Below are positions 2,424 to 28,186 of a stretch of 39,786 nt of DNA, one piece after another (position 1 is the stretch's first letter; every line of letters starts with the position of its first letter). Under the pieces are notes generated by a model. The model worked only from the letters and a program-made list of their open reading frames with translations. It searched no databases and was not told the DNA's origin. The stretch is taken from the IMG/VR virus record IMGVR_UViG_3300020125_000105, positions 1 through 39,786 of that record. One strand, 5' to 3'. Made by a program: the position numbers and the translations under genes. The stretch comes from a virus.

Positions 2424-3161
2424 TCAGTTGGCCGCGGCGAACTCCCGGTTGAAGAGCCCGGTCAGGCCGAGCGTCCCGCTCATCTGCGTCGCCGGGCTCG
2501 CGCCCTTCGCGATCTCGGTGAAAGCGTTGAACAGCGACCATGCCGTGCGCGGCTCGAACTCGACGTGCGACGGCTTGTACCACTCATCCAGCACGCGCGG
2601 CAGGCTCGTCACCCTGACGATGCCGGCGCGGAGCGCGAGGCATGCGACGTCATGCGCACGCGAGTCGCTCACCGGGGCGGCCTTGAAGCGATCGACCTGA
2701 GCCGTCATCTCGGCCTTGAAGCCGACCATCTGGCCGACGAGTTCCTCGACCATGGCCGGCAGATCCCGATCGACCGTGCCGACGTGACGGTGCTTGAACC
2801 GGAACTGCCCGTGCATCGCGAGGTTGTCGCAGACGAACACGTTCGTTCCGCCGCAGCCGTCCACCGTCATGCTCTTGTCGTAGGAGTTCCGGAACCCGAG
2901 CGCGATCCCCCAATCGGGCTGGCCCGAGCCGTTGACGACGTTCGCGACGCCGAACAGCCGCTTGCCCTCGTTCGCGAGCCCGAGGCGCAGCCGCTCGATC
3001 TTCATGCCGTGCAGCGGCACGGTGCGGCGGAACTGCTCGATCAGCCGCGAGTGCGGGATCGGCGTGTACGTCTCGGTGCGCTCCGGCACCGACACCGCGT
3101 TCACCTCGGCCTCGCTCGCATCCCATCCGCCCGTGTGCAGCATCATCGTTGCGTTGTCCAT
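2424..3161 (-). CDS. DUF932-family phage/plasmid protein, 245 aa
   Basis: ATG 3161 follows AAGGAGGA at 5-nt spacing. The protein begins MDNATMMLHTGGWDASEAEV and contains HSRLIEQFRRTVPLHGMKIE, PDWGIALGFRNSYDKSM and CDNLAMHGQFRFKHRH, the layout of DUF932 (a plasmid/phage family of about 250-300 aa, thought to bind nucleic acid but of unproven biochemical role). The C-terminal third is helical and ends FNREFAAAN. It is alone in its transcription unit, between promoter copy 3 and a GC-rich hairpin region. The family call is from pattern memory; the function stays open. Confidence 0.65.
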   Translation of the reverse strand: MDNATMMLHTGGWDASEAEVNAVSVPERTETYTPIPHSRLIEQFRRTVPLHGMKIERLRLGLANEGKRLFGVANVVNGSGQPDWGIALGFRNSYDKSMTVDGCGGTNVFVCDNLAMHGQFRFKHRHVGTVDRDLPAMVEELVGQMVGFKAEMTAQVDRFKAAPVSDSRAHDVACLALRAGIVRVTSLPRVLDEWYKPSHVEFEPRTAWSLFNAFTEIAKGASPATQMSGTLGLTGLFNREFAAAN

Positions 3162-3222
3162 CTGAATCCTCCTTGCCGCTCTGCGTTTCGCTCGCCGCCG
3201 GTCGATCCGGCGACTTGAAAGG

Positions 3223-3262
3223 ATCATCGGCCATCCGGGGGCCCGTGTGCAAGTGCTTTTTT
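3223..3262 (-). promoter_or_regulatory. Promoter repeat, copy 3 (TTGCAC-18-GATGAT)
   Basis: TTGCAC (3247-3252) and GATGAT (3223-3228) are 18 nt apart, with an AAAAAAGCAC tract upstream. The spacer matches copy 2 with one extra G. It lies just beyond the terminator hairpin of the upstream gene and drives the DUF932 gene. Confidence 0.75.
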
Positions 3263-3282
3263 CGCCCACCCCGGAAATACTT

Positions 3283-3310
3283 CGGGCCGGGAGCTTTCGC
3301 CCCCGGCCCG
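3283..3310 (-). terminator. 12-bp hairpin with GAAA tetraloop
   Basis: On the minus strand CGGGCCGGGGGC pairs with GCTCCCGGCCCG (one G-U pair) around a GAAA tetraloop, 18 nt past the stop of gene 3329-3796. It is followed by CGAAGTATTTCC, a partial U-rich stretch. This is the best intrinsic terminator candidate in the cassette region. Confidence 0.65.
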
Positions 3311-3328
3311 CGGACCGCGATCCGCTTT

Positions 3329-3796
3329 CTACTGCGTGACCGTGACGGTCCAGTTCGCCGGGCGATTCGAGAGCGCCTGCTTGAGCAGCGGCGCCGCCTT
3401 CGCGAGCGCATCGGCCTCGCATGTCGCCTTGACGACGCGCGACATGAACGATCCGCCATCGGACGTCACGGCCTTGACCGTGAACTCGACCGCGAGATCC
3501 TGCTCCTGCTGCGCGCGGCGCTCGGCCTCGCGGTTCCTCTCAAGTTGCTTGAAGAGGATCCACTTCGCGCGGTTCAGGTACTCGCGGATGCTGTTCTTCG
3601 GGAGATCGCGTTCGAGCATCTCCTGACAGTCGGAGAGGATCGAGCCGACGAGCATCTCGTTCGAGCCCGCCATGCGGACGTTGAACGACTCGGGGCCGTA
3701 GTGCTCCATCATCTCGGCCGGGCTCATCCCGAACATGGTCGCGTAGTTCGTGGCGATCTTCTGCTCGTCCGTCTGCGTCGCCTTCAGGTTCGTCAC
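3329..3796 (-). CDS. Hypothetical protein, 155 aa
   Basis: The start is GTG 3796, set by AAGGAGGA 7 nt upstream. The first two-thirds is helical and charged (QKIATNYATMFGMSPAEMME, SDCQEMLERDLPKNSIREYL, KQLERNREAERRAQQEQ), while the last third is beta-like (DLAVEFTVKAVTSDGGSFMS, ANWTVTVTQ). I do not recognise the family. It is a single-gene unit between promoter copy 4 and a strong hairpin, directly downstream of the large terminase gene. Confidence 0.7.
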   Translation of the reverse strand: MTNLKATQTDEQKIATNYATMFGMSPAEMMEHYGPESFNVRMAGSNEMLVGSILSDCQEMLERDLPKNSIREYLNRAKWILFKQLERNREAERRAQQEQDLAVEFTVKAVTSDGGSFMSRVVKATCEADALAKAAPLLKQALSNRPANWTVTVTQ

Positions 3797-6755: not shown

Positions 6756-7131
6756 TGATCGGCGCCCCTGTCGCTTGAAGGAACAGATCGGCCTTGCTCT
6801 CGAAATAGAGGAAGATCGTCCCCTTCGAGACTCCGGCGCGCTTCGCGATCTGCGCGAGCGTCGCCTTCGCTCCATGAGTTGCGAACTCGATCCGCGCCGC
6901 AGAGATCAGTTCGCCCGGGCGCTCATCCTTGCGCCGTCTCCACTTCGGTTCGCCCATCTTGCGCCCTCCAAACACGAGGCGATCGACCTCGCGCCAATAC
7001 GCTTCGTTAGCAAGCCGCTCGATCATCTTCGCGAACTCGTCGAGCGTCATGCGAGCCTCGATCACCCGCGTCTGCTCGGCGCTGAGTTCGATCCGAATCG
7101 TGCGATCGTACTCCCACACCTCGGCCTTCAT
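6730..7131 (-). CDS. TetR-type HTH protein without ligand domain, 133 aa
   Basis: The C-terminal half is a clear TetR/AcrR DNA-binding domain: ERPGELISAARIEFATHGA, ATLAQIAKRAGVSKGTIF and LYFESKADLF (residues 70-118). The usual large ligand-binding domain is missing; the chain ends about 15 residues later. The N-terminal 58 residues are a separate charged region. An in-frame internal ATG at 6957, preceded by GGAGGG at 6-nt spacing, could make a 75-aa HTH-only form. ATG 7131 overlaps the upstream stop (ATGA). A DNA-binding regulator of late or terminase-region genes is the simplest inference. Confidence 0.75.
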   Translation of the reverse strand: MKAEVWEYDRTIRIELSAEQTRVIEARMTLDEFAKMIERLANEAYWREVDRLVFGGRKMGEPKWRRRKDERPGELISAARIEFATHGAKATLAQIAKRAGVSKGTIFLYFESKADLFLQATGAPINDRAQAEL

Positions 7132-8324: not shown

Positions 8325-8538
8325 GATCCGTCGCCACGAGCCCGATATCGACTCTCATGCTGCCCACGTATTCGCCGACATTGCCGCTCCAACTCACGAG
8401 ACGGACCTGCTTCCCGTTGAGCATGTCGAATAGTCGCTTGTCATGTATCTCGATGACTCCGTTGTTCACGATGACGAGGCACGCTCGCTGATAGCTCTCG
8501 GCCATCGGCGGGCTCGGCTTCCTCCTTCTCTTCATCAC
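8317..8538 (-). CDS. Hypothetical protein, 73 aa
   Basis: The start is GTG 8538 or ATG 8535 (GTGATG, overlapping the upstream TGA). After a basic N terminus (MKRRRKPSPPM) the chain is beta-rich: ACLVIVNNGVIEIHDKRLF, QVRLVSWSGNVGEYVGSMR, VDIGLVATDHG. This looks like a small beta-barrel or OB-like fold. No family recognised. Confidence 0.6.
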   Translation of the reverse strand: MMKRRRKPSPPMAESYQRACLVIVNNGVIEIHDKRLFDMLNGKQVRLVSWSGNVGEYVGSMRVDIGLVATDHG

Positions 8539-9236
8539 AGCCCTCCCATGAAGTCAGCGCAGATCAGTTCGAGCGCGCGGCCGTCCGAGATCTGATCATC
8601 CTGCTCGCGTTCATGCACGATCGCGATCGCGCGCTTCACGACCGCGAACTGCTCCGCGGTGAGCCCTATCGTCTTGCGCTCCGGCGACCCGCCATCGCTC
8701 GATTCGGAGCCGGAGAGCTTCGGCAACAGCCCGCTCAGTTCGCTCGGGCTCCATCCGATGCCGGCGAGCGAGAGCCCGGCGAGCCGCATTGCGTCGAGGT
8801 TCTTGCCCAACTGCTCGCTGTTCCAGCGCGCAAGCTCCGCAGTGCGGTTGTCTGCGAGCCCGAACGCGATCGCATCGGCCTTGGACCCCTGCCAGATGAG
8901 TGCCGCTAGGTGGTCCCATCCCATACCGATCGCTGCCTTGAGCATGCCGTTCCCCGCGATCACGGTGCCGTCCGGCATGGCGACGACCGGCCGCTGCTGG
9001 CCGTGCCTCGTCATGCTGTCGCGAATCGCCTCGATGTTGCGGTCCCCGTGCTCGCGCGCGTTGTCCGGATCAGGTTTCAGCCACGCGATCGGCCGCGCAA
9101 GCTCCGCGAGCCCGGCGTTCATGCATGCGGTGCCAACCTTCATTTTTTCTCTGGCAGTGCTCCCCTCTCGCGCTCGCCGTTTACCCTCGATGATGGCCCG
9201 GCTAGTACCTTTCGATCTCAATCGTGTGCCCTTCAT
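8535..9236 (-). CDS. ParB/sulfiredoxin-fold protein, 233 aa
   Basis: The central region carries the ParB N-terminal-like signature: WLKPDPDNAREHGDRNIEAI, DSMTRHGQQRPVVAMPDGT, VIAGNGMLKAAIGMGWD, then FGLADNRTAEL (about residues 50-140). Phage proteins of this type are often fused or adjacent to DNA methyltransferases or act as nucleases; here there is no methyltransferase domain, but an orphan C5 methyltransferase lies 1.4 kb upstream. The first 30 residues are basic; a later Met (residue 32) could be the true start. The C-terminal region is helical. ATGA overlap with the upstream gene. Confidence 0.75.
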   Translation of the reverse strand: MKGTRLRSKGTSRAIIEGKRRAREGSTAREKMKVGTACMNAGLAELARPIAWLKPDPDNAREHGDRNIEAIRDSMTRHGQQRPVVAMPDGTVIAGNGMLKAAIGMGWDHLAALIWQGSKADAIAFGLADNRTAELARWNSEQLGKNLDAMRLAGLSLAGIGWSPSELSGLLPKLSGSESSDGGSPERKTIGLTAEQFAVVKRAIAIVHEREQDDQISDGRALELICADFMGGL

Positions 9237-9436
9237 GCGAACAGACCTAGCTGTTCGAGCCCGGGCTCACGATGCTTGCGCCTTGGTCGCATGCCAGCAT
9301 GCACTCGACATAGTTGCACCTTCGCCTCCTTGAGAGCGTGAGCATGGTAGCGACAGCGGTGCTCGGGTGTGCCGTCGCGAACGCGGCGCTTCACCCATGC
9401 GATGCACCGGGCTTCATCAGGCACGGGCTTGCGCAT
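9233..9436 (-). CDS. Small basic Cys/His protein, 67 aa
   Basis: ATG 9436 starts inside the end of the CsrA-like gene (20-nt overlap), with GGAGG about 12 nt upstream. The peptide has EARCIAWVKRRVRDGTPEHR, CRYHAHAL and VQLCRVHAGMRPRR: three Cys and three His in basic surroundings, consistent with a nucleic-acid-binding zinc peptide. Its end overlaps the ParB-like gene (ATGA). No family recognised. Confidence 0.6.
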   Translation of the reverse strand: MRKPVPDEARCIAWVKRRVRDGTPEHRCRYHAHALKEAKVQLCRVHAGMRPRRKHREPGLEQLGLFA

Positions 9437-9836
9437 CTGCCGGCGGCCTCCGGTTCTCGCGCCTCTCTTGTTGCCCGAGATGCCATGACAGCGAATAGTC
9501 GTCTCGCGTCACGGCCTCGGTGTTGGGCAGATCGAAGCCGAACCGTGCTTGTCCTCTACCTATGTCAGTGCAGAGGATTGTCCCCATGAGCCCGAGCCTG
9601 ATCTCCCCATCGAGGCGCACGCTGAGCGGGTAGATGAGTGTCCTGTCCGTGCCCGGCGTCATGCTCTGCTGCCGAGCAGCATGCATCTCGAACGGGAGCA
9701 CGCTCGCGAACATATCGGGTGGCACCTCCACGCTCACGGTGACGAACCGATCAGTAGGATCGATCGCGATCACCGTGAGCTTGCCGAGTCGCCCGAAGTA
9801 GATCGATCGCCCCGGCGTGCGCGAGAGCACGAGCAT
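9417..9836 (-). CDS. Tandem CsrA-like RNA-binding protein, 139 aa
   Basis: Residues 1-52 begin MLVLSRTPGRSIYFG and continue LTVIAIDPTDRFVTVSVEVP, closely following the CsrA pattern (ML-L-R--G--i-iG...tV....vtv.v.aP). Residues about 74-118 repeat it: RLDGEIRLGLMGTILCTD, RGQARFGFDLP, then VTRDDYSLSW, where R111 aligns with CsrA R44. CsrA (61 aa) is a domain-swapped dimer in which strand beta1 of one chain and R44 of the other form each RNA site. Here L4/R6 lie in half one and the R44 equivalent in half two, so one chain could form one site. A post-transcriptional regulator of phage or host mRNAs is inferred. TAATG overlap with the upstream gene. Confidence 0.7.
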   Translation of the reverse strand: MLVLSRTPGRSIYFGRLGKLTVIAIDPTDRFVTVSVEVPPDMFASVLPFEMHAARQQSMTPGTDRTLIYPLSVRLDGEIRLGLMGTILCTDIGRGQARFGFDLPNTEAVTRDDYSLSWHLGQQERRENRRPPADAQARA

Positions 9837-10045
9837 TAGAGATCTCCCTCGATGATCGGATGCCTGCGCACGTTGGCGCGGGCTTCGGCCGCATCCGCGC
9901 GATCGTTCGCATCGTCGAGAGCGCAGCAGATCGTGCGCATGGCCTCCGGGAACGTCGTGCCGCGCTCATCGCCCGGTTTGAACAGCCCGAACAGCGTCTC
10001 GACCTTCACGCGGGCGACTGCGATCTCCAGCATTGTCGGCTTCAT
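9836..10045 (-). CDS. Hypothetical protein, 69 aa
   Basis: ATG 10045 overlaps the preceding tiny ORF (ATGA) and has GGAGG at usable distance. The chain is helical (MLEIAVARVKVETLFGLFKP then EAMRTICCALDDANDRADAA), ending VRRHPIIEGDL. Its stop overlaps the CsrA-like start, so the two are translated together. Function unknown. Confidence 0.65.
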   Translation of the reverse strand: MKPTMLEIAVARVKVETLFGLFKPGDERGTTFPEAMRTICCALDDANDRADAAEARANVRRHPIIEGDL

Positions 10046-10426: not shown

Positions 10427-10654
10427 CTACGGCAGGTCGCTCCAGTCGTGCAGGTGGAGAGGCTCGGGCTCGCCCTTGAGTGCATTCGCGGTTCTCGTGA
10501 GCAAGCCAGCCATGCGGTTTCGCAGCACGGCGCGGGTCCAGCACCACGTCGGGCGGTCGAACCATCGCATCGTGACGAAGCCCTTGATCCGCACCCATGG
10601 GCTCGACAGGTCGCCTACCCACCACCGCCATAGTCGTCGCAGCACGCGGCTCAC
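10427..10654 (-). CDS. Basic Trp-rich protein, 75 aa, ends at amber
   Basis: GTG 10654 overlaps the methyltransferase stop (GTGA) and follows GGGAGGTGG. The peptide begins (M)SRVLRRLWRWWVGDLSSPW and continues VRIKGFVTMRWFDRPTWCWT; the N terminus is strongly basic and aromatic, suggesting membrane or nucleic-acid contact. The stop is TAG and the same frame then continues for 73 codons of coiled-coil sequence. No family recognised. Confidence 0.6.
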   Translation of the reverse strand: MSRVLRRLWRWWVGDLSSPWVRIKGFVTMRWFDRPTWCWTRAVLRNRMAGLLTRTANALKGEPEPLHLHDWSDLP

Positions 10655-11301
10655 TTCCCACCTCCCGGCCCGGCTGCGGCCAACTCGTGCTCGCAGGCGA
10701 TGCAAATCGACAAGGCGAGGGCTTCGGGAATCACGGCTCGAGCCGCGGCTCCGGACAATCCTTGAGTTCCGGTCTTGGCTCCACGCGGCGCTGCTTCGTG
10801 GCATGGCCGCCCGTTCTTGCACATCGGCCGCGGTCGCCATGAGTCGGGGAATCCGCCCCAGAGGTCGGTCGGCTTCATGCGCGTATCGCCGTAGGCGCAG
10901 AACGTCACGGTGATCCGCTCGAAATTGTCGAGCACGCCGAGCTTTCGCAAGACGCCGCGCGGATTCTCGATCACCCACCACCGCGGCTTGATGTCGCTGA
11001 TGAGATCGAGCGTGCGCTCGACGAGGCCGATGCTCAATCGTGCGTGCTCCGTCTTGGGCACATACATTCGACGGCCGCCCGTCCAGTGATGGCCGATGCT
11101 CGCCACAGAGAATGCCTCACACGGCGGCGAGGCGAGCACGAGGTCGAACGACCCGAGTGCTGTGGCGTCCAGCGTCATCACGTCGGCGCAGATATCGGGC
11201 TTGAACTTCGGCTCCATGTCCACGCCGACTACTTCGTGGCCGCGCTCGCGGAGTGGCTTGCTCCAGCCCCCGAGGCCGCAAAAGAGATCGAGCACCCTCA
11301 C
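10651..11301 (-). CDS. Orphan C5-cytosine DNA methyltransferase, 216 aa
   Basis: Motif I (LDLFCGLGG, residues 4-12) binds AdoMet; motif IV is LASPPCEAFS with catalytic Cys61; motif VI is VIENPRG (Glu112). The C terminus (RAVIPEALALSICIA) resembles the motif IX/X helix. At 216 aa it is shorter than M.HhaI (327), with a compact target-recognition region containing CKNGRPCHEA. No restriction enzyme is adjacent, so protection of phage DNA from host restriction is the likely role. The start is GTG 11301 (GTGA overlap), with AAGGAG upstream lying inside a 22-nt repeat. Confidence 0.88.
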   Translation of the reverse strand: MRVLDLFCGLGGWSKPLRERGHEVVGVDMEPKFKPDICADVMTLDATALGSFDLVLASPPCEAFSVASIGHHWTGGRRMYVPKTEHARLSIGLVERTLDLISDIKPRWWVIENPRGVLRKLGVLDNFERITVTFCAYGDTRMKPTDLWGGFPDSWRPRPMCKNGRPCHEAAPRGAKTGTQGLSGAAARAVIPEALALSICIACEHELAAAGPGGGK

Positions 11302-11447: not shown

Positions 11448-11788
11448 TTCGGCGTCTCCTTCTCGGCGGGCGCGAGCGAGCGGATGGCGGTCTTCAGCGC
11501 CATGACGCGCTCTGGTTGCGAGCAAGTGTCGCAGCACGACTGCGCGCGACACATCCCCTTGCCATCGCAGCCTGTCGTCCATGCCCTCGCCGCTTCGACT
11601 AATGCCCGCGTGCGTTCCCGTTCCGCGACCTCGCCAGCGTGACGAGCGCGGGCGAGCATTTCAGACAGTTCAAGCTCGGGCGCGGCCTTCGCCCCGAAGA
11701 TGTCTCGGACGCGATATTCAACGACGAACTGGCGCGCTCTCGCTTGCTCTTGCGGCGTGGGCTCCGGCGCGGCGGGCGGCGCGCTCAT
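11444..11788 (-). CDS. Hypothetical protein with Cys motif, 114 aa
   Basis: ATG 11788 overlaps the helicase-loader stop (ATGA). A Pro/Ala-rich N terminus (MSAPPAAPEPTPQEQARARQ) precedes a helical region (EMLARARHAGEVAERERTRA, LVEAARAW) and a Cys cluster, TGCDGKGMCRAQSCCDTCSQ. The chain ends LAPAEKETPK. The Cys cluster may bind zinc. Located between the helicase loader and the methyltransferase. No family recognised. Confidence 0.65.
   Translation of the reverse strand: MSAPPAAPEPTPQEQARARQFVVEYRVRDIFGAKAAPELELSEMLARARHAGEVAERERTRALVEAARAWTTGCDGKGMCRAQSCCDTCSQPERVMALKTAIRSLAPAEKETPK
11456..11477. repeat. 22-nt direct repeat, copy 2 (contains an RBS)
   Basis: Exact partner of 11310-11331. Here it encodes the C-terminal LAPAEKE of the 114-aa protein and supplies the AAGGAG for the 49-aa zinc-finger-like gene. 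Confidence 0.7.
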
Positions 11789-12609
11789 CGGACGATCCTC
11801 AGATCCGGCCCGGCCGGAATCGCGATGAGCTTGTTCTCCCCGCACAGTCGGGAGAACAGCCTCGCCCCGTAGCGATCGAGCAGTTCACCGCGCGTGAGAT
11901 TCGTCGTGTACCACGTCGGCAGCATCGAGCCGTGGCGGCGATCGATCAGCAGATCGAGCATGCTCGTCACCCAATCCGCTTCGTACTCATCCGAGCGCAC
12001 GCGCTCGCCGCCGAGGTCGTCGAGCACGAGCGCCGGGATCACCGCGAGTTTCTTCATCGAGCCCTCGGCCTCGGCGTATCCACCCTGATCACGAGCCGCG
12101 ATCACGCGAAGCTCGGCGGCCATCTCCGGCCAGCGTCGCCATGCGAGCCAGTTCTCGGTCACCGTCTCCCGGCTCGGGTTCCTGATCCAGCGCGCGCGCA
12201 CCATGTTCCGGAACGCGCACACGAGCGCGAACGTCTTGCCGGTGCCGACGTTCCCGGTGAGCCCGAACCCCGACCCGGGGATCTCCCCGGCCACCATGCT
12301 CGCGTAGATATCGCCGGCCTCGTGCTTGATCACGCTCGCGACCGCGGCCGGAACGCGCAGCACCTCGGCGAACCGCTCGCGATAGCTCACGCCGGCGCGC
12401 TTGAGCCAGCGGCCGAGCCAATCGTTCAGGTTCGCCGCGAGCGCCTTCTCGTAGCTCTGCCGTTCCTCCTGCTCTCGTGCGCGCTCGACCGCGGCCGGGC
12501 CCTCGACGGCCCTGAACTTGCGCATGAACTCGCTCACCGGATCGCCGATCTCGACCGGCCCCGTGAAGGTTTCCCGTGCAACATTCGGATCAATCCCGTC
12601 ATTGCCCAT
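11785..12609 (-). CDS. DnaC-like AAA+ helicase loader, 274 aa
   Basis: This is an ATPase that loads the replicative helicase. Walker A (GLTGNVGTGKT) is at residues 116-126, Walker B (PALVLDDLGGE) at 192-202, and a sensor-like TNLTRGELLDRYGARLFSRL follows, all as in DnaC/phage loader proteins. The N-terminal 100 residues would contact the helicase or initiator. ATG 12609 overlaps the upstream replication gene by 11 nt; ATG 12636 is an alternative. No phage helicase or polymerase is visible, so host DnaB and polymerase are probably recruited. Confidence 0.85.
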   Translation of the reverse strand: MGNDGIDPNVARETFTGPVEIGDPVSEFMRKFRAVEGPAAVERAREQEERQSYEKALAANLNDWLGRWLKRAGVSYRERFAEVLRVPAAVASVIKHEAGDIYASMVAGEIPGSGFGLTGNVGTGKTFALVCAFRNMVRARWIRNPSRETVTENWLAWRRWPEMAAELRVIAARDQGGYAEAEGSMKKLAVIPALVLDDLGGERVRSDEYEADWVTSMLDLLIDRRHGSMLPTWYTTNLTRGELLDRYGARLFSRLCGENKLIAIPAGPDLRIVR

Positions 12610-13498
12610 TGCCGCCCCCTGCGTTGGCGTCACCATACCTCGCATCTGACCCACGTCGAGCCCCGGCGCGCCGGTTCGATGGCCGCGCCGCCCCGCCCGC
12701 GGCCTTGTCCTGATCGCCGCGGAGCCAGTTGTTCACGAATGCCGCGATGCCCCGCCCGGTCGGCCGGTTCTTCGGGTGCGTCAGCAGCCAGCCCCGCATG
12801 GCCGCGAACGACCGCGCGAGGTTCACCCCGGGATAGAGCGCCTCGAACTCCCCGAGCAGCCGGTCGCCCGGGCGCCACTCGATGCCGGCGCCTGCGAGCG
12901 GCAGCGACGGGCCCGTGTAGGCCTCGGCGGCCGGGGGCGACTCCAGAGCCAGAACTCCGGCCTCGGGCTCAGCAGCGGGCAAGGACGCCCTGACCTGCGT
13001 CGAATCCGGGGGGCCGTCGCGGTGCGGTTCTGGCACCGCGGCGGAAGTCCTTTGATTCTCTGTCTTCTGACTTCTGTCTTCTGTCTTGGGCTCACCTTGA
13101 TCACCGTGAGCCGGCGTGAGCCCGGGCCCGGCCTGACGCTGCCGGTAGCGTTGCGTGGCGGCCCGCGTCTGCTCCTTGCGCGCTTCCTCGTCCCTCATGC
13201 CCCGGTAGAGCGCGTGATTCACGATCCGCCACCCCCAATCCCGGTGCTCGACCAGCCGCAGCAGCCGGCGGCCTTCCTCGGCCGGCGTGCGGCTGTGCGG
13301 ATCCGGGGATTCGAGGTGCTCGATCGCAGCGTTCACCCGGTCGATCGGGATGCCGGTGAGCGCCGAGATGTGCGGCCTTGACTTCTCAACGATGCCCTTG
13401 CCGTCGCTGTGAGCGAGCATGAAGCACCACACGAGTTGAACGTCCGGCTTGCCGCACATCGAGCCTTCCCACGTCTGCGCGAAGATCTTGCCGAACAC
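12599..13498 (-). CDS. Replication organiser / initiator-like protein, 299 aa
   Basis: The start is GTG 13498, directly after the TAG of the previous gene. The N terminus (KIFAQTWEGSMCGKPDVQLV, WCFMLAHSDGKGIVEKS, then ISALTGIPIDRVNAAIEHL) is a winged-helix domain of the kind found in phage replisome organisers and lambda O-like initiators. A basic segment (QRYRQRQAG) and a long polar linker with KTEDRSQKTENQ follow. The C-terminal domain (LLGEFEALYPGVNLARSFAA, AAFVNNWLRGDQDKA) is typical of helicase-binding ends. Pairing with the loader downstream supports the call. The linker DNA (about 13050-13090) has short repeats and might hold the origin, which is inference. Confidence 0.75.
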   Translation of the reverse strand: MFGKIFAQTWEGSMCGKPDVQLVWCFMLAHSDGKGIVEKSRPHISALTGIPIDRVNAAIEHLESPDPHSRTPAEEGRRLLRLVEHRDWGWRIVNHALYRGMRDEEARKEQTRAATQRYRQRQAGPGLTPAHGDQGEPKTEDRSQKTENQRTSAAVPEPHRDGPPDSTQVRASLPAAEPEAGVLALESPPAAEAYTGPSLPLAGAGIEWRPGDRLLGEFEALYPGVNLARSFAAMRGWLLTHPKNRPTGRGIAAFVNNWLRGDQDKAAGGAARPSNRRAGARRGSDARYGDANAGGGNGQ

Positions 13499-25084: not shown

Positions 25085-28000
25085 CTAGTCGATGTTGATC
25101 GCCATGATCTCGGTGCTCCAGTCGGTCGGCCCGAGGTTCTGCGTCACGTCGATCACGAGCATTGCCTTGCCCGTCCACTTCCCGTCGCTGCCGTACTTCG
25201 GGAACGACGCCTTCGCATCGACGCTCGAATCGATCGGGATCACCTGCATACGCCTGACATCTGGCATGTAGACGGTCGCGAACTTCGCCACGACCCGCGG
25301 CAGCCCGGCGACGTCGAAGCGCCGATTCCGAAGTTGAACAGCCGTGTTCTCGTCGCGGATCCAGTCCGCGGCGATCTGGAGTTCCTCGCGCGGATCGTAG
25401 TAGCTTTCAAAGGCGATCGCCGTCGTCTCGCGGTTCCCGCGCGTATAGTCGCCATGATACATGCCGACCGTGATGCCGGCCGCGTCCGCCTTGATGAAGC
25501 CGAGCACGTCGGCACAGTTCGTGGCGACGTTCGCACCCGTTCCCCAGAGATAGGTATTCGTGTCGCCGGAGTCGCCGTCCCCGATGAAGAACCGCTCTCC
25601 ATAGCGCGCGAGGTTTGAAGTCACCGATGTTGCCGGCGGCGGCGCGAGGCCGGACGCAAAGACGAATCCGGTCGCGGGCAGCGCCGAGTTGACGAGCCCG
25701 ACTGCCGTGTTGATCGATGGAAGTGCGAACGTGCCGCCCGTCGATGTGATCGTGAACTTGTTGGCGGCATGATCATATGTGCATGCGAACACGAGCCCGT
25801 GCCCGGGCACCGCGTTCATCGCGCGCGCGACCTCGGCCGCCAGAGTTTCCGCGGCATAGTCGCCCGGCAGCAGCGTCGCCTGATATGGCGTCGCGCTCAC
25901 GAGGAAGTCGAACAGATGATTGAACCCGGTCTTGATCGAGAAGCCGAACCCGGTGAACTCCGAGTTGTCGGCCTCCTGCGCGCGCACCTTGGAGCGCCAC
26001 TCGGCAGCAAGGTCAATAGCCGCATAGGTGCCGGGCGCCAGCGTCGCCGCATAGGTCGTGGGGCCGGCGCCGGCCTTCCAATCGAACTTGTCGTTGACGC
26101 CCGTGGTGATCATGAGCTTCTGATCGCGCACCGTGGGCTGCGTGAGCCCCTGACTGCTGCCGGCCGAGTTGACGAATGCTTCCCAGAGCGTCGTCTGCTT
26201 GTAGTGATCGAATCCGTACTTGACCCGGATCGCATGCCGCACATCGACGACGCTCGTCTCTTCGACCTTGAAGCCGCCGGTTAGCTCCCACGGCACCGCG
26301 AGCGCATAGTCGATCTGAGCGCCCGGCTTCCATGGGAACGCGAGCCACTTGTTCGTGAATCGATCGAGGTAGACCGCGATCCCGGCATGCTCTGCCATGC
26401 GCTGGACTGCCTGCTGGACCGACATGCGATCGCTGAGATGCACCGCGAGCTTGTAGTCGCTCGGCTGCGCGTTGCGCAGCGTGTTGCGCAGATCCACGAA
26501 GCTACCACTCGCGCCGGCGCCCGTCTCGATCGAGCCGCCGCTGATGCCGACATATGTGACGAGGAAGTGCCGGATGATATCGGCAGGCCGCTCGATCAGC
26601 GCATTCGCGGCGCCAGTGTAGGTGCCGCTGCCGTCGTCCTTGTAGCCGCGCACGTTCCCGTAGAACTGGCCTTCGCGCGAATACTTCGCGGCGACGTCAA
26701 CGAAGCTCACGCGCGGGTACGGACGCGATCCGAGGTGTACGCCCGGGCCCGAGCCAATCGGCGGGCCGCCACTCACGCCGCTCCGCGGGTTCAGGATGCG
26801 CGCGCTCGGAGTCACGAGGCTCCGCTGCGGCCGGTACTTCACGACGAGCGCCGCCCAGAGGATGCTGGCCTTGTTCGTAGTGCCGCCGGCGAAGTCCACG
26901 CGCAGATCGAACACGTTGGTCGAGGTGCCGCCGAAGTTCCATGTCTGATCGTAGTAGGTCGTCGGCCATGTTCCCGTCATCACGGCCGGCGTCGTTCCGG
27001 TCGAAGCCGTCTGGACGGCAGTGCCGCCGCCTGCTCCGACGCCGGGCTTCCAGCCGTCTGCCCGCAGGTTGTGTGTGTTGCCGGCGTTGCCGATGAAGGC
27101 GATCGATACGGTGACGCTCTCGATGCGGCCGAGCGCGCTCAGGTTGGGAAGGATGAGTTGCAGTTCCTTCGCGGTCCCGGATTGATCGAGCGAGGCGAAC
27201 GACGTCTCATCGAACACATCCATCGCACGCCGCGGGTTCGTTGCCGTGTTGATGTGGCCGGCGCCCGCGCTCGTGCGAACGTCGATCGGGATCACTGCGG
27301 CGTAGGCGATCGCGCTCTCATCGGCCAGCGAGAGATACGACTCGCTCGCCCCGAGCGTTTCAGTGAGCCCGCAGACGTCGAGCGGAGCCAGCAGGTTCTC
27401 GCCGACGATGAACGCCGAGCGCCCGTTCGTGCGATCCAGAATGTCGTCGCAGAGATGCGACGCCGCCACGACCTTGACGGTCGCCGCGCCGACGCCGGCA
27501 TCGACCAGCATGAGCGGAACGACTCCGCGCCCGGCGCCAACATCTTCCTGCTTGCTCTTGCTGCCATAGGCGCTCGTCCACGGCGAACGCATCGCGGGCG
27601 CGCTGTGATTCCCGTAGATCACCGGGATCGGCAGCCCCTGCGAGACGTCTGGCGAACTCGGATAACTCACCTTGTCCACGACGGTCGGCGGAACCTGCTT
27701 GTTCCACGAAGTATCCTGAAGCAGCAGCAGACGCATTCCCGCATGATCAATGTCCACGATGCGCGAGACGCGACCCTTGTAGACCTGAAACGCATCGGCC
27801 CATGCGAGGCCGGCCCCGGTCACCCAGAGGTAGATCGTCACCACGGCGTTCGCGAAGAGGTTCGCCGAGAGCAGATCCTGATTCGTCGCCAGCGTCGCGG
27901 GATACGGGAACGCCGGCAGCGCCTGATTCGGATCGCGGCGCTTCGCGATCCAGATGGATGCGTCGCTCGGGTTGACGCCGGGGCTCAGCAGCGCGATCGA

Positions 28001-28186
28001 CTCGCGGATGGGATCCGGCTTGAGCCCCTCGACCCACGTCGATCCATCCGGCGTGTCGATCCCCGCGGTGCCATAGCGGAGCGTCATCGCGCTCGGAGTC
28101 GAGACGTCGATCTGCGCCAGAGCCACGCGACCGACGCGAGTGTGCCGCCATGCGGCGAGGAAGGCTGCTGTCGCCGGGCTGCTCAT
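25085..28186 (-). CDS. Tail hub / tip attachment protein, 1033 aa
   Basis: ATG 28186 overlaps the upstream stop (ATGA); an ATG 7 codons earlier is possible. This is the largest gene and follows the distal tail gene, as expected for the central tail-tip protein. The N-terminal third has TAAFLAAWRHTRVGRVALAQ and VYKGRVSRIVDIDHAGMRLL, typical of hub proteins; a middle region has QQAVQRMAEHAGIAVYLDRF. Near residues 700-800 two repeats, YAATLAPGTYAAIDLAAEW and YQATLLPGDYAAETLAAEV, resemble small beta modules found in phage tail proteins. It may carry the receptor-binding or murein-contact function. Confidence 0.7.
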   Translation of the reverse strand: MSSPATAAFLAAWRHTRVGRVALAQIDVSTPSAMTLRYGTAGIDTPDGSTWVEGLKPDPIRESIALLSPGVNPSDASIWIAKRRDPNQALPAFPYPATLATNQDLLSANLFANAVVTIYLWVTGAGLAWADAFQVYKGRVSRIVDIDHAGMRLLLLQDTSWNKQVPPTVVDKVSYPSSPDVSQGLPIPVIYGNHSAPAMRSPWTSAYGSKSKQEDVGAGRGVVPLMLVDAGVGAATVKVVAASHLCDDILDRTNGRSAFIVGENLLAPLDVCGLTETLGASESYLSLADESAIAYAAVIPIDVRTSAGAGHINTATNPRRAMDVFDETSFASLDQSGTAKELQLILPNLSALGRIESVTVSIAFIGNAGNTHNLRADGWKPGVGAGGGTAVQTASTGTTPAVMTGTWPTTYYDQTWNFGGTSTNVFDLRVDFAGGTTNKASILWAALVVKYRPQRSLVTPSARILNPRSGVSGGPPIGSGPGVHLGSRPYPRVSFVDVAAKYSREGQFYGNVRGYKDDGSGTYTGAANALIERPADIIRHFLVTYVGISGGSIETGAGASGSFVDLRNTLRNAQPSDYKLAVHLSDRMSVQQAVQRMAEHAGIAVYLDRFTNKWLAFPWKPGAQIDYALAVPWELTGGFKVEETSVVDVRHAIRVKYGFDHYKQTTLWEAFVNSAGSSQGLTQPTVRDQKLMITTGVNDKFDWKAGAGPTTYAATLAPGTYAAIDLAAEWRSKVRAQEADNSEFTGFGFSIKTGFNHLFDFLVSATPYQATLLPGDYAAETLAAEVARAMNAVPGHGLVFACTYDHAANKFTITSTGGTFALPSINTAVGLVNSALPATGFVFASGLAPPPATSVTSNLARYGERFFIGDGDSGDTNTYLWGTGANVATNCADVLGFIKADAAGITVGMYHGDYTRGNRETTAIAFESYYDPREELQIAADWIRDENTAVQLRNRRFDVAGLPRVVAKFATVYMPDVRRMQVIPIDSSVDAKASFPKYGSDGKWTGKAMLVIDVTQNLGPTDWSTEIMAINID

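Follow-up and report, generated by a model that had tools for sequence, protein, structure and literature searches.

The tandem CsrA-like gene and its neighbors

The window, the whole stretch of 39,786 nucleotides analyzed here, is an entire virus record with a GC content of 65.7%, and because it encodes a gpA-type terminase, a portal protein and major head and tail proteins, we assign it to a tailed phage. On its minus strand, at 9417..9836 including the stop codon, lies an open reading frame (ORF) of 139 amino acids, which an initial annotation made from the sequence had described as a single-chain tandem CsrA-like protein. The GC content at codon positions 1, 2 and 3 of this gene is 0.64, 0.49 and 0.77, a gene-like pattern, and a probable ribosome-binding site, GAGGGAG, lies 8–14 nt 5' of the ATG (9844..9850, minus strand). 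A frame artefact was considered as the source of the ORF and rejected.

The tandem gene overlaps the adjoining ORFs at both ends. Upstream is a 69-amino acid ORF with no Pfam match and no assigned function (9836..10045, minus strand), the stop codon of which overlaps the start codon of the tandem gene (TAATG), an arrangement that suggests translational coupling of the two. Downstream, a 67-amino acid Cys/His-containing ORF (9233..9436, minus strand), also without a Pfam match, overlaps the 3' end of the tandem gene, and a similar ORF comes after the homologous gene in contig L088. Next follows a conserved neighbor, a ParB-like protein of 233 amino acids read from the sequence and lacking a Pfam match (8535..9236, minus strand); contig L086 also has a ParB-like gene 3' of its tandem gene. 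This protein stands alone in the window, and its homolog in contig L030 (L030:6354-8324) is 657 amino acids long and reads as a ParB-DNA methylase fusion. Relatives of the ParB-like protein were not found when it was used as a search query. Further upstream, at 11785..12654 on the minus strand, we identified a P-loop ATPase that is DnaC/IstB-like by its Walker motifs and has no Pfam match. Elsewhere on the same strand are a short DNA (cytosine-5) methylase-like protein of 216 amino acids (10651-11301; Pfam DNA_methylase, E 1.4e-8, over its first 120 residues), a DUF932 protein (2424-3422; E 3.7e-8) and a tail-region protein of 1033 amino acids without a PHROG match (25085-28186). No Rfam families or tRNAs were found in the window.

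Evidence for a duplicated CsrA unit

The motifs that the initial annotation had quoted were borne out in the translation: MLVLSRTPG occupies residues 1-9 of the protein and includes L4 and R6, and RGQARFGFDLPNTEAVTRDDY, which includes R111, is present in its second half. Pfam CsrA (PF02599) matched residues 1-42 with an E value of 9.5e-5 and 22.7 bits, below the curated cut-off of 27 bits, which is a matter of the sensitivity threshold, and PHROG 9500, 'CsrA-like regulator', matched with an E value of 0.0022. Half two of the window protein alone gave no Pfam CsrA match, and searches with the window protein by itself returned no relatives from viral contigs, the phage collection or the PDB.

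Homologs were reached instead via the terminase, the upstream P-loop ATPase, PF02599 matches in the records found, and alignments of the tandem proteins. This approach yielded six homologs in other viral contigs, with 25-46% identity to the window protein (L086:1504-1926, L088:6917-7366, L089:7430-7831, L093:5998-6408, L098:7680-8102 and L176:5998-6414). Including the window, the tandem gene is therefore present in seven contigs, mostly adjoining the same ATPase, a homolog of which precedes it directly or within ~2 kb in L086, L088, L089, L093 and L098. Four of the six homologs (L093, L089, L176 and L098) contain two Pfam CsrA stretches apiece, above the cut-off, and a CsrA profile built from four sequences found two domains, some of them weak, in L093, L089, L098, L086 and L088. 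The comparison of each half with CsrA, which the initial annotation had proposed as a check, was positive for half one of the window protein, if below the cut-off, and negative for half two taken alone; half two was matched through its relatives. Tandem relatives were not found among 50,697 phage records, in PLSDB plasmids or in scans of genome contigs.

Two other contigs carry CsrA-like genes of different kinds. L030 encodes a canonical CsrA. In L025, a single-domain CsrA-like ORF (6855-7112, plus strand; VLILAVNRGD...QVTRNATPEAHLAAQ) lies directly 3' of the same ATPase. In this ORF R6 is missing, the Arg at the R44 place is retained, and a tree clusters it with the second halves of the tandem proteins. 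We see it as a possible reduced relative of the tandem protein.

Profile-profile comparison using HHalign aligned half one with half two at a probability of 97.8%, and aligned half one and half two with canonical CsrA at 97.1% and 95.0%, respectively. After column shuffling (n = 200 for each comparison), the maxima were 10.6% for half one against half two, 8.0% for half one against CsrA and 3.5% for half two against CsrA. A profile of all seven sequences searched against the PDB matched E. coli CsrA with half one (E 1.3e-6) and, weakly, RsmN/RsmF with half two (E 0.22-0.28).

AlphaFold2, given the seven-sequence alignment, produced a model with a pLDDT of 92.1 and a pTM of 0.84, in which each chain contains two CsrA-type units; on the window sequence by itself, the pLDDT was 40.7. 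In the model, half one (residues 1-57; 9666..9836, minus strand) has strands at residues 2-6, 11-14, 18-26, 31-38 and, short, 44-45, followed by a helix at 49-57. Half two (residues 67-128; 9453..9638, minus strand) has strands at 67-74, 78-81, 85-93, 96-102 and 109-111 and a helix at 116-128. Both halves thus show five predicted strands and then a helix, which is the CsrA order, with the fifth strand (beta5) of half one being short. A Foldseek search of the model against the PDB returned nothing below an E value of 1e-3, and the top CsrA-family match there was RsmN (4kji; probability 0.96, E 0.12). Against BFVD, Foldseek returned six matches below 1e-3, the best of which is named 'Carbon storage regulator'. 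These are phage proteins of 88-160 amino acids (A0A6J5RUQ1, A0A6G5YEX0, A0A6G5YD98, G8CTD4, A0A1J0MD66 and A0A2I7RQV3), and, judged from these model-based matches, sequence searches may understate how widespread single-chain CsrA-like pairs are. Our assignment of the predicted CsrA fold is based on the sequence profiles and the secondary structure of the model more than on Foldseek.

Two-domain matches in the relatives, HHalign scores far above those of the shuffles and a confident AlphaFold2 model together strongly support the reading of this protein as a single-chain tandem CsrA. The findings that would speak against it, the absence of a CsrA match for either half or a fold without two five-stranded units, were both looked for, and neither was seen.

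Asymmetric conservation of the two predicted RNA-binding surfaces

In the CsrA dimer, each RNA-binding surface pairs beta1 from one subunit with beta5 from its partner, and RNA binding depends critically on L4 and R44 (PMC7652899). We therefore defined surface A of the tandem protein as half-one beta1 with half-two beta5, and surface B as half-two beta1 with half-one beta5. On surface A, Arg6 of half-one beta1 (codon at 9819..9821, minus strand) and Arg111, at the R44 place of half-two beta5 (codon at 9504..9506, minus strand), are both Arg in 7/7 sequences. L4 is present in the window protein and is Ile in several homologs. The R44 place of half one, by contrast, holds V, I, R, A, G, G and D across the seven sequences, with V46 in the window protein. 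The sole Arg is that of L088, so site B may survive in some members. The two surface-A elements have mean pairwise identities of 0.54 and 0.57 among the seven sequences, compared with 0.35 and 0.21 for the surface-B elements. Sequence drift makes the alignments of the surface-B elements uncertain, and of all the elements half-two beta1 is conserved least. In the window protein, the RNA-contact residues (L4/R6 of beta1 and the Arg at the R44 place) are present for surface A and absent for surface B. The initial annotation had suggested from one sequence that one site could be built and the other lost, and conservation across the seven homologs lends this suggestion comparative support.

Each chain contains two CsrA units, and conservation is asymmetric, with half-one beta1 and half-two beta5 kept and half-one beta5 and half-two beta1 diverged. 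Since a site in the CsrA dimer combines beta1 of one unit with beta5 of the other, this pattern points to one working site and one that is dead or repurposed. We consider it fairly likely that the protein is a single-chain CsrA pseudo-dimer that arose by internal duplication of a phage CsrA, with a single functional GGA-binding site. A tree of the halves and single-domain CsrAs was built on short sequences and has few solid branches; in it, the first halves cluster together (62/65), the second halves group with the L025 ORF and Bcep CsrA (89/90), and the phage halves as a whole separate from canonical CsrAs (97/92). One duplication before the divergence of these phages would be the simplest reading.

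If surface A binds RNA and surface B does not, each molecule would hold one GGA-type site and could not bridge two. Being pre-paired, the chain would also require no partner and should therefore neither exchange nor mix subunits with host CsrA. During infection, such a protein could regulate the translation of phage or host mRNAs or compete for host Csr RNAs. A broader proposal, which we hold tentatively and at slightly less than even chances, is that a natural single-chain, single-site CsrA is under selection in this phage lineage as an intramolecular 'dimer' that is insulated from host CsrA, does not bridge, and either overrides or competes with the host Csr network or times phage translation.

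We considered three other readings of the protein. It might bind RNA at two sites of asymmetric specificity, with site B using other residues to read a different RNA, so that the chain bridges unlike sequences. The Arg at the half-one R44 place of L088 fits this idea, as does RsmN, whose equivalent Arg proved dispensable in one assay (PMC3791407). However, the poor conservation of the surface-B elements (identity 0.21-0.35) is unlike that of a second site under shared selection, and we regard this reading as unlikely. It is more doubtful still that the protein no longer acts on RNA and is instead a CsrA relative that associates with virions or binds proteins, its conserved surface serving to hold a protein partner. 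In phage JC1, one unique peptide of the phage's single-domain CsrA was detected with virions (PMC9144972), and other CsrAs bind proteins, for example CesT (PMC5864733). Against this, what is conserved is exactly the RNA-contact pair of CsrA (R6 and the R44 place), and the tandem gene shares its run of genes with the ATPase and the ParB-like protein and does not lie among head genes.

The remaining alternative denies the tandem altogether and posits one CsrA domain joined to an unrelated beta domain or to an extension of the RsmM type. In the window protein Pfam does detect half one only, and F116 gp24 and its phi297 counterpart have one CsrA domain plus an extension without CsrA likeness. This arrangement is ruled out for the tandem protein, with a probability we regard as negligible, by the second Pfam CsrA stretch in four homologs, the HHalign probability of 97.8% between the halves against at most 10.6% after shuffling, and the secondary structure repeated in the AlphaFold2 model. 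We conclude that the protein is a genuine and new single-chain member of the CsrA family and, from its pattern of conserved residues, probably a one-site RNA binder.

The initial annotation had also pointed to GGA motifs in phage leaders as possible targets. AAGGAGG leaders do exist at 693, 2152, 3168 and 3803 on the minus strand, but they are ordinary ribosome-binding sites with no evidence of being CsrA targets, and as the GGA within AAGGAGG would occur in any Shine-Dalgarno sequence, they carry no weight in this respect. Leaders with GCAAGGAGGAWC or a near-identical sequence occur at 693, 1677, 2152, 3168, 3803, 18553 and 39083 (minus strand), mostly with a C before AAGGAGG. A C lies directly 5' of AAGGAG in 7/10 window leaders and is frequent in close relatives too. 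We gave this CAAGGAG bias no weight because the counts are small, the loci are related (the terminases of L006 and the window match at 100%) and Shine-Dalgarno sequences confound it.

Comparison with known CsrA-family proteins

CsrA is the textbook example of a symmetric dimer, in which two RNA sites are thought to be important for bridging and full repression. A natural fused dimer with one decayed site would offer a ready-made test of one-site function, previously approached via engineered heterodimers. It would also point to a way for phages to obtain a Csr-type regulator that is not expected to exchange subunits with host CsrA, and it could serve as the basis for single-chain CsrA tools whose two sites are separately alterable.

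The tandem protein resembles CsrA/RsmA (PF02599), and E. coli CsrA in particular, in having five strands and a helix per unit, L4 and R6 in beta1 and, for one site, the Arg at the R44 place. It differs in carrying two units on one chain of 139 amino acids, whereas CsrA is a homodimer of ~60-amino acid chains, and in lacking the key residues of the second site. It is homologous to CsrA and, judged from these residues, probably works like half of it; because it is not a homodimer and is without the second site, we do not count it as a canonical member. The closest laboratory counterpart is the engineered one-site CsrA, a heterodimer of wild-type and R44A chains (Mercante et al. 2009, as described in PMC7652899); by the same account, one-site dimers carrying R44A no longer bridge or fully repress glgC. 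In both proteins one surface is intact and the other lacks R44, but the engineered version is a construct of two chains and the phage tandem is natural and covalent. RsmN/RsmF of Pseudomonas aeruginosa is likewise a rearranged member of the family, a homodimer with a helix between beta2 and beta3 in which the R44 equivalent is dispensable in some assays (PMC3791407). The AlphaFold2 model of the tandem, in contrast, places a helix after beta5 in both halves (49-57 and 116-128) and none between beta2 and beta3.

Tailed phages carry CsrA-family genes, and Sobrero and Valverde list 30 csrA-bearing phages (PMC7366521); the word 'tandem' is absent from their article, and we found no earlier description of a tandem CsrA in the literature searched. 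The phage CsrAs that we examined from the annotated collection have either a single domain or a single domain plus an extension lacking CsrA likeness. The RsmM proteins of F116 and phi297, the Bcep22-like proteins and the CsrA-like regulators of Vibrio phages contain one CsrA domain, which may or may not be extended, and the tandem differs from the RsmM-type F116 gp24 in that its second half is itself CsrA-like. Plasmid RsmQ is another CsrA homolog on a mobile element; it acts on host translation and forms heterodimers with host Rsm proteins (PMC9928087), whereas the pre-paired single chain of the phage should avoid such heterodimers with host proteins.
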